From Candidatus Altimarinota bacterium (GTDB taxonomy: Bacteria > Patescibacteria > JAEDAM01 > BD1-5 > UBA2023): 12,453 bases of DNA. The first letter of the stretch is position 1, and each line of letters starts with the position of its first letter. The DNA is taken from positions 1 to 12,453 of the forward strand of contig JAGYHI010000027.1 in NCBI GenBank assembly GCA_018457335.1, read 5' to 3'. Both the position numbers and the translations under genes were made by a program. Positions 8,443 through 12,453 of the stretch are shown here, one piece after another. The notes below the pieces were generated by a model, which had not been told where the DNA came from, searched no databases, and saw only the letters and a program-made list of their open reading frames with translations.

Positions 8443-8470
8443 TTGCTATTTTGATAAATTTTCATATACC
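8443..8470 (+). promoter_or_regulatory. Plus promoter of unit A (peptide mRNA)
   Basis: TTGCTA (8443-8448), a 16-nt spacer and TATACC (8465-8470). The predicted transcription start is G8477, seven bases on, so the RNA begins GCCUC. Unit B has the same spacing and the same first bases. Confidence 0.65.
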
Positions 8471-8536
8471 ACTTTCGCCTCAGCACTTTTCTGAGGTGTT
8501 GAGGAATATTTTTTATTTCTTAACGGTTTTGCGTAT

Positions 8537-8617
8537 ATGGAAATATTTTTCCATATAGTGATGACAGTGTACTATCTGCATCACTATTTTAAAGCCTGCA
8601 TCTGTGATAAGATGTAG
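8537..8617 (+). CDS. 26-residue hydrophobic peptide, candidate type I toxin (copy A)
   Basis: A 26-codon ORF, ATG to TAG, starting MEIFFHIVMTVYYLHHYF and ending KACICDKM. Residues 3-18 are hydrophobic and aromatic, enough for one membrane helix; the last eight are polar and Cys-containing. Copy B, 297 bp downstream, encodes a peptide of exactly the same length that aligns without gaps, sharing M1, I3, V8, T10, Y17, K19, A20, I22, C23, K25 and M26. This conservation, while surrounding DNA has drifted, supports a real gene. Its place in an mRNA opposed by an antisense RNA suggests a membrane-acting toxin like Fst or Ldr, but it lacks the motif I know from Fst. There is no Shine-Dalgarno sequence, and the start is next to the antisense-complementary region. 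Function is inferred from architecture. Confidence 0.7.
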   Translation: MEIFFHIVMTVYYLHHYFKACICDKM

Positions 8618-8618
8618 C

Positions 8619-8648
8619 AAAAAGAGGCTCGGGGGAGCCTCTTTTTTT
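8619..8648. terminator. Bidirectional terminator of unit A
   Basis: GAGGCTC (8624-8630) pairs with GAGCCTC (8635-8641) around a GGGG loop; the stem extends through flanking A and T runs to 12 bp. Seven T follow on the plus strand and five on the minus strand, so converging transcripts can both end here. Confidence 0.85.
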
Positions 8649-8704
8649 GTTGAGGAATTTTTATTTTCCTAACGATTTGCATTTTGGAGCTCTTTCGAAC
8701 TCTT
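8619..8704 (-). ncRNA. Unit A antisense RNA (antitoxin-like, RNA II analogue)
   Basis: A predicted minus-strand RNA of about 85 nt from A8704 to the shared terminator. It starts AA-GAGUUC-GAAA-GAGCUC, a 6-bp hairpin (8702-8687) with a GNRA tetraloop. One pair is G-U in this RNA but would be a C-A mismatch in the plus strand, which argues that the minus strand is the functional one. It then carries the complement of X' (8649-8687), a near copy of leader element X (8498-8540) of the plus RNA. It can therefore pair with the plus RNA both at the terminator and at the leader and start codon, as in par RNA II. Confidence 0.6.
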
Positions 8705-8710
8705 ACAAAG

Positions 8711-8738
8711 AGTATATCATATTTTTGGAAAAAAGCAA
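8711..8738 (-). promoter_or_regulatory. Minus promoter of unit A antisense RNA
   Basis: On the minus strand, TTGCTT (8738-8733), a 16-nt spacer and TATACT (8716-8711). It lies in the best conserved part of the unit: the 8680-8741 block is nearly identical to 8980-9043 in unit B. It is back-to-back with the plus promoter of unit B, whose -35 box starts at 8745. Confidence 0.65.
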
Positions 8739-8744
8739 ATGTTT

Positions 8745-8772
8745 TTGATATTTTGAAGATTTTTTATATACT
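8745..8772 (+). promoter_or_regulatory. Plus promoter of unit B (peptide mRNA)
   Basis: TTGATA (8745-8750), a 16-nt spacer and TATACT (8767-8772). The predicted start is G8779, so the RNA begins GCCUC as in unit A. Confidence 0.7.
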
Positions 8773-8833
8773 AAACTAGCCTCGATATCTTTCGGGGTAT
8801 CGGGGTTATTTATTTTTTAACCTCTGTCATATT

Positions 8834-8914
8834 ATGTATATAGTGATATATACGGTATATACACTGTTTCACTGGTATATATACACAAAGGCTTACATTT
8901 GTAGTAAAATGTAG
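8834..8914 (+). CDS. 26-residue hydrophobic peptide, candidate type I toxin (copy B)
   Basis: A 26-codon ORF, ATG to TAG, starting MYIVIYTVYTLFHWYIYT and ending KAYICSKM. Residues 2-18 are hydrophobic, with many Tyr and one Trp, fitting a single membrane helix; the tail is polar. It matches copy A at 11 of 26 positions without a gap, mainly in the K-A-x-I-C-x-K-M tail, and both stop with TAG. The leader (about 55 nt) and the distance from stop to terminator are close to those of copy A. Low-complexity TA-rich DNA (8835-8884) encodes the helix, so compositional bias alone could give hydrophobic residues, but not the shared tail. It is probably a membrane-active toxin controlled by the opposing RNA; toxicity is untested. 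Confidence 0.7.
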   Translation: MYIVIYTVYTLFHWYIYTKAYICSKM

Positions 8915-8920
8915 AGTCAC

Positions 8921-8956
8921 AAAAAAAAGAAGACCATGGGACGGTCTTCTTTTTTA
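8921..8956. terminator. Bidirectional terminator of unit B
   Basis: GAAGACC (8929-8935) pairs with GGTCTTC (8943-8949) around a 7-nt loop, extended by A and T runs to about 13 bp. It has T runs on both strands. Its sequence is unrelated to the unit A terminator although it holds the same position. Confidence 0.85.
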
Positions 8957-9006
8957 TCGAGGTTATTTAACCCTCTGTGCATATTTTGGAGTTCTTGCGA
9001 ACTCTT
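8921..9006 (-). ncRNA. Unit B antisense RNA (antitoxin-like, RNA II analogue)
   Basis: A predicted minus-strand RNA of about 85 nt from A9006 to the shared terminator. It begins AA-GAGUUC-GCAA-GAACUC, a perfect 6-bp hairpin (9004-8989) with a GNRA tetraloop. It carries the complement of X' (8955-8989), which matches leader element X of the same unit (8798-8836) apart from a short internal gap and a few substitutions, and would cover the region up to the peptide start codon. Confidence 0.6.
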
Positions 9007-9012
9007 ACAAAG

Positions 9013-9040
9013 AGTATATCATATTTTCGGGAAAAAGCAA
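9013..9040 (-). promoter_or_regulatory. Minus promoter of unit B antisense RNA
   Basis: On the minus strand, TTGCTT (9040-9035), a 16-nt spacer and TATACT (9018-9013). The boxes and spacing are the same as in unit A. Confidence 0.65.
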
Positions 9041-9052
9041 ATGTTTTTTCAG

Positions 9053-9115: not shown

Positions 9116-9246
9116 GGTAATATTTTCTCGAAGATAATCCCTTTGTCTCACTATCGCTCGACATTTCCCTTATTAAGGGAAACCTTTTAGAGGAATTTGT
9201 TTATTGATTGGATTCCCACATGCGCGGAAATGACATACTCCCTCTG

Positions 9247-9365
9247 TCATCGCGAGCGACTAAAAGGAGCGTGGCGATCTCAAAGTCCATAGTCAGAGAT
9301 TGCTTCGCTGACGCTCGCGGGTGACGACTTTTTGAGAGATTGCCACAGCTTCGCCTCGCAATGAC
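9247..9365. repeat. GTCATCGCGA-type palindromic element, copy 1
   Basis: It begins GTCATCGCGAG and ends CTCGCAATGAC, with internal GTGGCGATCTC, AGATTGCTTCG and GAGATTGCCACAG blocks that form nested inverted repeats. This is the widely dispersed 'cgcaatgac' class of intergenic palindromes known from several bacterial phyla. A related copy is at 9981-10089. The GC content is clearly above that of its surroundings. Confidence 0.7.
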
Positions 9366-9386
9366 AGTTTCTATTTTTCTGAAAAA

Positions 9387-9489
9387 ATCCCCCCTTAGTC
9401 CCCCCTCACAGGGGGAAATAGAGAGGTGGAAATCCCCCCTCACAGGGGGAAAGAGAGAGGTGGAAATCCCCCCTCACAGGGGGAAATTT
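9387..9489. repeat. 34-bp tandem repeat with CCCCCT/AGGGGG palindromes
   Basis: Three units with exact 34-bp spacing start at 9400, 9434 and 9468. Each has the core CCCCCCTCACAGGGGGAAA, and the first two are followed by a purine-rich AGAGAGGTGGAAAT-like linker. The core is a hairpin (CCCCCT/AGGGGG type). The segment before the first unit (TCCCCCCTTAGTCC, 9389-9402) recurs with the core at 9785-9819. Confidence 0.8.
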
Positions 9490-9519
9490 TAGTTTTTCTC
9501 ATTGAAGGCTCCCCATTCT

Positions 9520-9580
9520 GTCATTCCCCAATCAAGTTGAGGACAGGCTCTGAACTTGTTTCAGGATCTCGTGCAGTACT
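9520..9580. repeat. Palindromic repeat, 'caagttgagg..gaacttgtttcaggatct' type
   Basis: CAAGTT (9533-9538) pairs with AACTTG (9553-9558). It is preceded by GTCATTCCCC and followed by TTTCAGGATCTCGTGC, a phrase typical of dispersed intergenic repeats in many bacteria. Confidence 0.45.
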
Positions 9581-9611
9581 ATGGAACACTTTCAAAAAAT
9601 GACTTTTCCTC

Positions 9612-9647
9612 TTTTGGCTGGATTCCGTGTCGGAGCACGGAATGACA
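9612..9647. repeat. Palindrome ATTCCGTG/CACGGAAT with GACAT end
   Basis: ATTCCGTG (9622-9629) and CACGGAAT (9636-9643) enclose a 6-nt loop. It is preceded by GGCTGG and followed by GACAT. It is a sister element of the palindromes at 9677-9699 and 9740-9759. Confidence 0.6.
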
Positions 9648-9674
9648 TATGCTGCTTTATATGTCTCCAAGATG

Positions 9675-9703
9675 TCATCCTCGGGCTTGACCCGGGGATC
9701 TAG
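9675..9703. repeat. Palindrome ATCCTCGGG/CCCGGGGAT
   Basis: The 9-bp arms 9677-9685 and 9691-9699 enclose a 5-nt loop. It is preceded by GTC and followed by CTAG. GC-rich compared with its surroundings. Confidence 0.6.
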
Positions 9704-9737
9704 TTTGGAATTTTCACTTGGGTACGTTTTCCCACCC

Positions 9738-9764
9738 AGATTCCCGCCTGTGCGGGAATGACAG
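9738..9764. repeat. Palindrome ATTCCCGC/GCGGGAAT with GACA end
   Basis: The perfect 8-bp arms 9740-9747 and 9752-9759 enclose a CTGT loop and are followed by GACAGTTTCTATTTTTC. The same trailing phrase follows the copy ending at 9365, so the island is made of duplicated blocks. Confidence 0.65.
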
Positions 9765-9783
9765 TTTCTATTTTTCCGAAAAA

Positions 9784-9822
9784 AATCCCCCCTTAGTCCC
9801 CCCTCACAGGGGGAAATTTTAA
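9784..9822. repeat. Distant fourth copy of the CCCCCCTCACAGGGGGAAA element
   Basis: It repeats 9387-9420 almost exactly: TCCCCCCTTAGTCC followed by CCCCCTCACAGGGGGAAAT. The preceding GACAGTTTCTATTTTTC also matches, so a block of about 60 bp (9363-9420) is duplicated at 9760-9820. Confidence 0.75.
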
Positions 9823-9980
9823 TTTCCCACTTTCCTTATAAAATACACAAAAACCGTACAAAAATAAATCCCACCACAATAAATAATAAAATAGTCAAGT
9901 CGAAATATTTGCATAAAAAGAAAAATTATGATACGCTATATTTGTAACCTTTAAGAAACTTTTTTGCTAACAAGTCTTTC
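9823..9980. other. AT-rich spacer inside the repeat island
   Basis: No gene is seen. A possible weak plus-strand promoter, TTGCAT (9909-9914), 17 nt, TACGCT (9932-9937), points toward the surface-protein gene. If it is used, the leader would cross the second GTCATCGCGA element and the AG microsatellite. Confidence 0.3.
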
Positions 9981-10089: not shown

Positions 10090-10154
10090 GAGTTTTCCAA
10101 GAAAATTTCTCAAAAGTTCCATGTTGTAATTTTATTTTTTTAACCAATACAAAT

Positions 10155-10250
<96 letters not shown>

Positions 10251-10347: not shown

Positions 10348-12453
10348 ATGAATACAAATAGAAAGTCTCCAATATGGGGCAAAAAACTCCTTGCGGGAGT
10401 ACAAATCGTCGCGATAATGACGACACTGACGCCAGTTGGTGGAATGCTTGGTGGAAGCGTCAATCCGCTGAATAGCGTCATCAGTGTAAGCGCAGAAGTC
10501 AACTACAATCAATATACACAAGATGACTTCACCTATGCAGATGGAGCAAAAACCATCGTAACAGGTTTTTCTCAATCTGGAACTAATAAAGCCAATGACC
10601 CAAGTGGAAAAGATATCCGCTTCCCAGATAATGTAAGAATCATAGCGGAGCGCGCTTTTGAAAATGCACGACTTACAAATGTCGATCTCAATCAAATCAC
10701 TGAGGTCAGAGAAAGAGGTTTTGCAAATAACTCCATCATAGAACTCAAAAATACAGACAATCTCGTCACAGTCTGAAGAGAAGCTTTTAAGGTAAATAAA
10801 ATCTCGGGTACCCTATCACTTGCAAATATCGTCAACCTCGAACCCTATGCTTTTGCAAGCAATGATATCTCAGGGGAACTCAGTCTCCCAAATGCAACCA
10901 TTATCAAAAAAGGCGTTTTTAGTAGTAATAAAATCACAAGCGTCAATCTCCCAGAAGTCGTGACGATTGAGGAAGTTGCTTTTCAGGAAAATGATATCCA
11001 AGAACTGCACCTCCCAAAAGTAGAAGTAATCTGAGATGGATTTACTTGAGATGGAAATTGAGCTTTTTTTGCAAATGGAAGCATCACTACTATCGATCTC
11101 CCAAAAGCCAGAATTATCGGAGCAAGGACTTTTGGGGGATGCCCTCAGAAAAAAACTACCATAAATCTGCCAGAGGCTGAAATAATTTGAGAGGCTGCTT
11201 TTAAGGGCTGTCAAATCTCTGGAGAAATCACTCTTCCAAAAGTAAAAACGATTCGGGGATGTGCTTTTATGGAAAATAAAATCCAAAAAGTCAATTTACC
11301 TGACGATATACAATCAATTTGAGACTACGCTTTTCATAATAACCACATAAATGATCTGACGAATTTTCCAGAAAATTTTAAAAATAGTGATGTCCTCGGT
11401 CGTCAAACTATCATTGTAAAACCTCCATATCCGGAGTTTGAAGCTGATCCATACAACATCAAAATCGATGAAGCGACACAAGTATTTCTCTCTGATGAAT
11501 TTCCAGACTATCTAAGCTATAACACAGAAGCAAATACCTATCTTTTTAATACAGAATATTTTATTGAACATCCATTTGATGTTTTAACATCATCTATTCA
11601 AGATTCACGAGTGAATTATAAATACGAATTTTACCCTCCAACTCCGAGTACACCAGTCATCGCTCCAGTCAAAAACTCAGATGAAAATATCAAAATCAAT
11701 GTCGTCGACGACCGAGAAAATGTCCGAAAACTCGAAGTACATCTAGGAGAGTGAACAGAGACATGTAATTTTGATTTAATAAAATGATATGTATGTAATA
11801 CAGTTTATGAAGATGAAAATACTTTTATACTCACTCGAGATACAGCCGATGGACCATTTATGCTCGATGGCAAAGAAGTGGTAGTCGAAGATGGAAAATA
11901 TGTCATACCAATTCCAGAAGGAAAATTGTATAATGGTGGAAAAATTAATGCTACGGTCACAAATAATATTAATATTCCATCAGGCACAACTACAATCAGT
12001 ATCCACGAAGTCTATCTCTACACTGCTACAAAATCAGGGACACGATCTCAGGATTTTAAAAGAGAGTGTGAGGATCAATTTGAAGGATCTACCGAGACCT
12101 ATACAACTCCTGAAATCACTGTAGAGCGAAAAGCTGAAACGCAAGAAGAAGCTGACCAAAAAGCTCAAACCGAGCTCGATAAACAGCTTCAAAACAATAT
12201 CGATGTCTACGGACAAACCCATGCAAATGCAAACGGAACTTGTACGCAAGTCGAGTGGACCGAAGATAGTTTTTATATAGAAAGTATACTCGTCCAAAAA
12301 GATGATTGTGAATCCGAAAAAGTCGGACAAGATGTCGTAGTGACTTCACTCAAATTTGCAACTGCTACTGGATCAAGTCATGAAAATGCAAGACAAAATG
12401 CTACAGAAAAAGCAAAACAACTCGTCGAAGCAGATCTCGAACAGCACAAACAA
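10348..12453 (+). CDS. BspA-type leucine-rich-repeat surface protein with DUF5977-like repeats (3' end outside window)
   Basis: The first 702 residues of a large exported protein. Residues 1-49 look like a signal peptide: basic start MNTNRKSPIWGKK, a hydrophobic core, then VISVSA. Residues 90-335 hold about eleven BspA/LRR_5-type repeats with the motif LP-x-(5)-IG-x-x-A-F-x-x-N-x-I-x-x-(V/I)-x-L. Residues 350-570 are a region of unknown fold rich in Asp and Asn. From Cys574 there is a DUF5977-like unit (STETYTTPEITVERKAETQEEAD to YGQTHANANGTC, ending Cys632), and a second begins near residue 672 (SSHENARQNATEKAKQ). Eight in-frame TGA codons encode Gly; those at 11032, 11188 and 11320 fall on the Gly of the IG-x-x-(A/G)-F motif. 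The roles expected are adhesion or host-cell contact. An AG microsatellite upstream suggests variable expression. Confidence 0.88.

Follow-up and report, generated by a model that had tools for sequence, protein, structure and literature searches.

Two tandem units of par-type design, candidate type I toxin-antitoxin modules, in a Candidatus Altimarinota contig and further units in related genomes

Positions 8443 to 9041 of contig JAGYHI010000027.1 of a Candidatus Altimarinota bacterium hold two tandem units, each with a plus-strand leader and an ORF of 26 amino acids, a bidirectional terminator and a converging promoter (the window, 12,453 nucleotides long, is the whole stretch of DNA analyzed here). 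Each unit probably encodes a peptide under antisense control in an arrangement of the par type, and a type I toxin-antitoxin module is its most likely identity. At the level of sequence, the case is built on the layout, the complementarity of the two predicted RNAs, the co-variation of the two repeats that produce it and the selection on the peptide reading frame. Read along the plus strand, each unit opens with a plus promoter (16-nt spacer) and a start at GCCTC; the 5' helix, the leader and the ORF follow, then a perfect hairpin flanked by A and T runs and, finally, the converging promoter. An earlier note on this DNA had described the tandem pair in much the same way, with GCCUC at both plus starts and with direct repeats (X in the leader, X' past the terminator) making each antisense RNA complementary to the leader of its target; these features hold on re-checking the sequence, the predicted starts being at 8477 and 8779.

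The plus promoter of unit 1 (TTGCTA-16-TATACC, 8443 to 8470) is weak, with 8 of 12 consensus positions by our own count, and was not among the matches of an E. coli-style scan; it is in register with that of unit 2 and lies 6 nt 5' of GCCTC. The predicted peptide mRNA spans 8477 to 8651, with its 5' helix at 8477 to 8497 (z of −6.55 for the fold of 8476 to 8625). Leader repeat X, found by alignment (8497 to 8548), extends over the start codon of the ORF (8537 to 8617; MEIFFHIVMTVYYLHHYFKACICDKM), for which the frame is conserved with respect to unit 2. The terminator, with a 12-bp stem, occupies 8619 to 8646, and X' follows it at 8648 to 8695 (repeat D4 and alignment). On the minus strand, a promoter of the form TTTGCT...TATACT (8711 to 8739, a pattern match) would drive an antisense RNA of ca. 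88 nt (8617 to 8704, start placed from the −10; z of −6.15 for 8617 to 8708). In unit 2, the plus promoter (TTGATA-16-TATACT, 8745 to 8772) scored 10/12 in the E. coli-style scan, and the predicted mRNA (8779 to 8958) likewise has a 5' helix (z of −5.35 for 8779 to 8928). Its repeat X (8799 to 8836) comes in two blocks, the second ending at the ATG of the ORF (8834 to 8914; MYIVIYTVYTLFHWYIYTKAYICSKM; frame conserved with respect to unit 1), and X' is at 8956 to 8988 (repeat D5 and alignment, both extents drawn by eye). The terminator, with a 13-bp stem, lies at 8923 to 8955, and the predicted antisense RNA, of ca. 86 nt (8921 to 9006, minus strand, start again placed from the −10; z of −6.20 for 8921 to 9010), is preceded by a minus promoter at 9013 to 9041, also a pattern match. 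The earlier note had put the antisense RNAs at ca. 85 nt. The 66-bp stretch surrounding the minus promoters is 94% identical between the units, while leaders, terminators and ORFs diverge more.

Matches to the E. coli type of promoter are not above chance in the region (6, versus 3.8, sd 1.8, in shuffles). Four matches to the pattern TTTGCW-N15..18-TATNNT were found in the window, among them both minus promoters. The same pattern is enriched in the closest relative, G001, with 190 matches in 926 kb versus 74 in one shuffled copy; 55 of the 190 fall within 150 bp 5' of an ORF start (11% of positions) and 62 inside ORFs. Sequences resembling the window minus promoters also stand 5' of ordinary genes in G001. 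On these two grounds the putative minus promoters are taken as ordinary promoters of this lineage. The converging promoter is nearer to the lineage consensus than the plus promoter. The convergent arrangement typical of par is present in the window at the level of sequence, with a weak plus promoter in unit 1.

More units of the same design occur in related genomes, where the earlier note had said that they should be sought. R1, a covariance model built from the mRNAs of both window units, gave matches at E ≤ 1 in 12 of 353 genomes of the class; eight of the 12 loci were inspected and one, L022 (E = 2.5e-5 per genome), was a real unit. With L022 included (R2), at least 36 of the 40 genomes of its family (that of G110) had matches at E ≤ 1. 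Among 18 inspected regions (20 fetched), 9 were recognized as units. Peptide profile A8 had 35 matches across the class, spread over 24 of the 353 genomes (E ≤ 0.05), and clear ones (E < 1e-10) in four; the 11 best matches were units, as was a weak one (G088:C221), and weak matches in G080 and G014 were not. Profile A9, which includes the window peptides, matched five of 40 genomes at E ≤ 0.01, the fifth being G087 (E = 0.009). A third covariance model, R3, had matches at E ≤ 0.01 in 12 of 353 genomes; 13 matches were units, all in the same four genomes, and nine weaker ones were not counted, five of them having been inspected and found not to be units. The tally is thus 13 further units in four genomes (two in G110, three in G119, four in G120 and four in G088), or 15 with the window pair. 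As clear matches are confined to 4 of the 353 genomes, the units are rare, which weighs against the main reading. Absences in the class-wide model searches are soft, since only seven candidates were scored per genome. Among 379 sampled genomes of the phylum, the peptide profile recovered at E ≤ 0.001 only G110 itself. In all 12 non-window units taken into the layout analysis, a −10 is present on the minus strand and a repeat covers the start codon; the same is true, by eye, of L169.

The complementarity created by the repeats is strong and private to each unit. In both window units, the antisense re-reads the leader as far as the start codon, with X' mismatching the A of the ATG. The leader duplex of unit 1 reaches −43.1 kcal/mol with its own antisense versus −20.2 with that of its neighbor, and the leader of unit 2 −34.4 versus −15.2; none of 500 shuffles attained the cognate energies of either unit, nor those of any of the 14 units so analyzed (L169, found later, was left out of this test and of the matrix). 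In a 14 × 14 matrix of leaders and antisense RNAs, the cognate pair came out strongest in all rows but one and all columns but one, the exception being the near-identical sister pair L084/L090. L086 and L092 adjoin the same gene in the same arrangement, the encoded protein being 91% identical, and their cognate duplexes (−27.1 and −30.0) are much stronger than the crossed ones (−14.5 and −17.9); as read from these energies, both repeats have changed together. A repeat split in two blocks, the second at the ATG, was seen by eye in much of subfamily B (see below) as well as in window unit 2. Predicted antisense RNAs across the units range from 58 to 88 nt. A peptide of <60 amino acids with an antisense RNA complementary to its mRNA, one of the marks of a type I system, is what the sequences alone predict.

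The four folds of the window, i.e., two mRNA pieces and two antisense RNAs, have z values from −5.4 to −6.6, with 0 of 200 dinucleotide shuffles as stable in each case. Both window terminators are perfect stems with an A run 5' and a T run 3', and over 14 units the stem is paired in 92.3% of cells. Co-variation in the terminators over these units is modest, the score being matched by 3 of 500 shuffles, and pairs changed on both sides are not more frequent than in shuffles. At the predicted starts, the first 8 nt of the mRNA are held in the 5' helix in the window (unpaired 0.16 and 0.02), and the helix is missing in five of the 12 non-window units, their starts being predicted as well. The AUG is hidden within the mRNA fold in unit 1 (0.02) and partly so in unit 2 (0.30). 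Occlusion of the start codon by the mRNA's own fold is clear for unit 1 and L093 only, and five units (L022, L084, L134, L137 and L103) have an AUG that is more exposed than that of shuffled sequences. No Shine-Dalgarno sequence was seen by eye. Leaders of the kind TATTTTTTTAA before the ATG recur, by eye, in ordinary genes of the lineage (window positions 10129 to 10157; L006 and L007), and the motif is thus not peculiar to the units; it may serve the lineage generally as the setting of translation starts that lack a Shine-Dalgarno site. A YUNR motif stands in the sense terminator loop of 10 of the 12 non-window units (L022, L084, L085, L086, L087, L090, L092, L093, L134 and L137) and in that of neither window unit.

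The window pair and the other units probably share a common ancestor. Global alignments of whole mRNAs, window units against peptide subfamilies A and B, outscored every one of 200 dinucleotide shuffles in each of four comparisons (z of 3.8 to 7.3); local alignments were less clear (P of 0 to 0.045), and the shared terminator and the non-specific leader motif contribute to the signal. We grade it no higher because piecewise alignments were mixed (for unit 2 against A, the leader, aligned locally, and the ORF part were at chance) and the reverse test was weak: a profile lacking the window gave E = 0.064 for unit 1, nothing on the plus strand of unit 2 matched along its mRNA, and the leader model favored the leader of another gene. 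Other candidates were discarded. Unit 2 DNA matched 1 of the 27 genomes of the relative's family at E ≤ 0.001, at a promoter and not at a unit, and R2 gave matches at E ≤ 1 in 24 of these 27 (best 0.002), the locus inspected (L102 in G014) not being a unit. Searched against G110, the genome it comes from, L022 DNA matched 75 times at E ≤ 1; one match was itself, and two others, on inspection, were promoters of ordinary genes. A scan for the layout over the 926 kb of G001 scored 22 places; the top one was attributed to a duplicated tRNA stretch, the second, on inspection, was not a unit, and the remaining places scored 11.6 or less. The minus-promoter DNA pattern had 0 matches in the genome and viral collections. 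Against Rfam, nothing in the window reached the gathering score, and a lenient search with the window region and six unit loci produced only sub-threshold matches.

From this arrangement we infer transcription of both RNAs, a translation block, toxicity of the peptide and a role in addiction or stress. The plus promoter would produce a highly folded mRNA of ca. 175 to 180 nt, and the converging promoter a short antisense RNA that stops at the terminator common to both. The predicted RNAs are complementary at the terminator and at repeat X. Since repeat X covers the leader up to the start codon, their pairing would block ribosome entry. If antisense transcription dropped or the locus were lost, the peptide would be made and the cell harmed. 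Each antisense fits its own mRNA best, and tandem units should therefore act independently. The toxic step is suggested by the layout, the private antisense RNAs, the copy number and the loss of ORFs with the RNA kept. This last feature was found in 3 of the 15 units (L090, with an early stop; L169, with a small frame-shifting deletion; and L134, which reads through its terminator), where the ORF is disrupted or extended and X' and the minus promoter are retained. It is the outcome expected if loss of the peptide is tolerated and loss of the RNA is not, although it could be plain decay.

The main rival to a toxin-antitoxin module is that these are antisense-regulated genes for small peptides that are not toxins (a signal, a regulator or a nucleic-acid-binding peptide), silent until needed, which we hold to be rather unlikely. 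The nature of the peptides speaks for it. They had been described as hydrophobic, which is moderately so in the window (best 19-residue hydropathy of 0.93 and 0.73; elsewhere from −0.17 in L094 up to 1.31 in L022), but no tested peptide has the profile of a transmembrane helix, and the six tested from other genomes are short and basic, with net charges of +4 to +12. This lack of a membrane-helix profile counts against the toxin reading. In addition, no partner gene was prominent by eye at the 11 loci with surroundings. However, diverging paralogues with private antisense RNAs, together with ORF loss where the RNA is kept, argue against harmless peptides. Toxin-antitoxin loci typically show just these features. 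The window peptides, neither of which contains Pro or Gly, align without gaps (11 of 26 residues identical), as the earlier note had said, and two further subfamilies exist, A (MRIYLSFKLKNGYIFAFSILNNTKKKAKKKRG and the like) and B (MKVLVTFPVWKGYIVSFSLRKKKFSRKRKTI and the like). They had also been proposed as a new family unlike Fst, and indeed the tested peptides match no known family: there was no match at E ≤ 10 in Pfam or NCBIfam for seven peptides including both window ones, no significant match in PHROGs or PADLOC-DB for five (the sole row being one PHROG at E = 0.5), and none in the PDB for profile A8 and the unit 2 peptide (one chain at E = 0.96). A 49-amino-acid homologue searched against a protein database gave one candidate, none scoring. 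Tentatively, and with more doubt than confidence, Gracilibacteria may have evolved or retained a par-like circuit whose type I peptides, read in code 25, form a new class: short, beta-rich and often basic instead of membrane-helical, and acting in the cytoplasm, for example on nucleic acid or the ribosome.

It is improbable that the units are pairs of non-coding RNAs, two complementary structured molecules with an incidental ORF. Strong folds along the whole mRNA and the three disrupted or extended ORFs would fit such pairs, but the constraint is specific to the reading frame, in seven homologues and in the window pair. When observed substitutions were relocated at random, the seven subfamily-B ORFs (first 22 codons) had 19 amino-acid changes versus 27.2 expected (P = 0.0006), whereas frames +1 and +2 gave P of 0.81 and 0.58, with stops in all seven. 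Five B ORFs compared across 31 codons gave P = 0.025, and the window pair 0.003 to 0.005 for similarity and 0.002 to 0.004 for similarity without stops. Window ORFs are read in code 25. L137 and its near-copy L169 have an in-frame TGA where most relatives have Gly (correspondence by eye), which also argues against non-coding pairs. The peptide reading frame is, on these substitution patterns, under selection, as the earlier note's proposal of a maintained frame demanded.

Plasmid and phage copy-control systems likewise place an antisense RNA across a leader that carries a small ORF; we give hardly any credit to the units being remnants of such a system, because no replication gene was seen beside them by eye and three scans of viral contigs (with the minus-promoter pattern, the L134 ORF and the subfamily-B pattern) detected no relative. 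Surroundings are known for 11 units; other genes flank 10 of them, and L094 is close to the end of its contig. The neighbors look chromosomal by eye, with no mobile gene prominent. In the window, the mechanosensitive-channel protein is 76% identical to that of the nearest named relative, the metagenome-assembled Candidatus Gracilibacteria isolate DOLZORAL124_35_19. Gene order with respect to the relative is conserved as far as the P-type ATPase; upstream of its start (8350), the alignment continues to ca. 8425, with a poor gapped extension to 8461, and so breaks down close to the start of unit 1. No unit was seen at the corresponding place in the relative. On the other side, dispersed intergenic repeats lie within 9230 to 9960 (by eye also present in L001 and L019), and a 34-bp tandem repeat lies at 9399 to 9487. 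Farther along, a BspA-like leucine-rich-repeat gene starts at 10348, and a 25-copy AG tract (10196 to 10245) separates this start from an ATG at 10155, the two ATGs being preceded by similar leaders. As no stop interrupts the gene's frame when it is followed 5' across the tract, a change in AG copy number could switch the frame, and the gene is a candidate for a phase-variable surface protein.

If the peptides are toxic, the design extends beyond its known toxin family, and a layout search can recover it where one with peptides does not succeed; it would also represent an unexpected regulatory device for bacteria with reduced genomes. Fifteen units are available for direct tests.

The txpA/RatA pair of Bacillus interacts at its 3' overlap, whereas here a separate repeat targets the start codon. 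Overlap of the genes at their 3' ends is nevertheless common to both (txpA-ratA is named in the accessible part of PMC4147584). Another type I candidate outside the classical phyla is msoT1/msoA1 of Microcystis, from a different phylum and likened here by description and not by layout; according to the accessible part of that 2025 paper (PMC12390103), no type I system had been found outside Proteobacteria, Firmicutes and Tenericutes before this one from a cyanobacterium. A type IV system is named in Vampirococcus in the accessible part of PMC8080830. According to the earlier note, par-type systems are not known to be described in such a Patescibacterium, and none of the titles and abstract openings listed by searches of the open-licence literature on Patescibacteria, Gracilibacteria or CPR is about a type I system in this group. 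The earlier note had recognized the arrangement of par of pAD1 (RNA I/Fst and RNA II), and the greater part of the likeness stands. According to the accessible text of PMC7472228, par and its relatives have convergent promoters, a shared bidirectional terminator, an antisense made across direct repeats reaching the translation start of the toxin and a 5' helix on the mRNA, with copies outside mobile elements and private repeats per copy; the split repeat blocks found here are comparable to DRa and DRb. Another par feature in that text is a 5' stem-loop that conceals the Shine-Dalgarno site; the window shows the AUG concealed in unit 1 and partly so in unit 2, and the picture in the other units is mixed. 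The U-turn and the Fst signature are the part that did not stand. The U-turn motif acts in pAD1 par, although not every par homologue has it (PMC7472228, accessible text), and the window terminator loops are without one; the Fst/Ldr signature (transmembrane helix, Trp, charged end and PXXXG) is absent from the peptides tested here, which match no family model. The par antisense, at ca. 40 nt in the accessible description, is also shorter than the 58 to 88 nt predicted here, and par belongs to Firmicutes and not to Gracilibacteria. Because the U-turn and the Fst signature are lacking, the window units are not placed in the Fst/par family; they share with it the layout, the terminator, the repeats and the 5' helix and would work in a par-like way.
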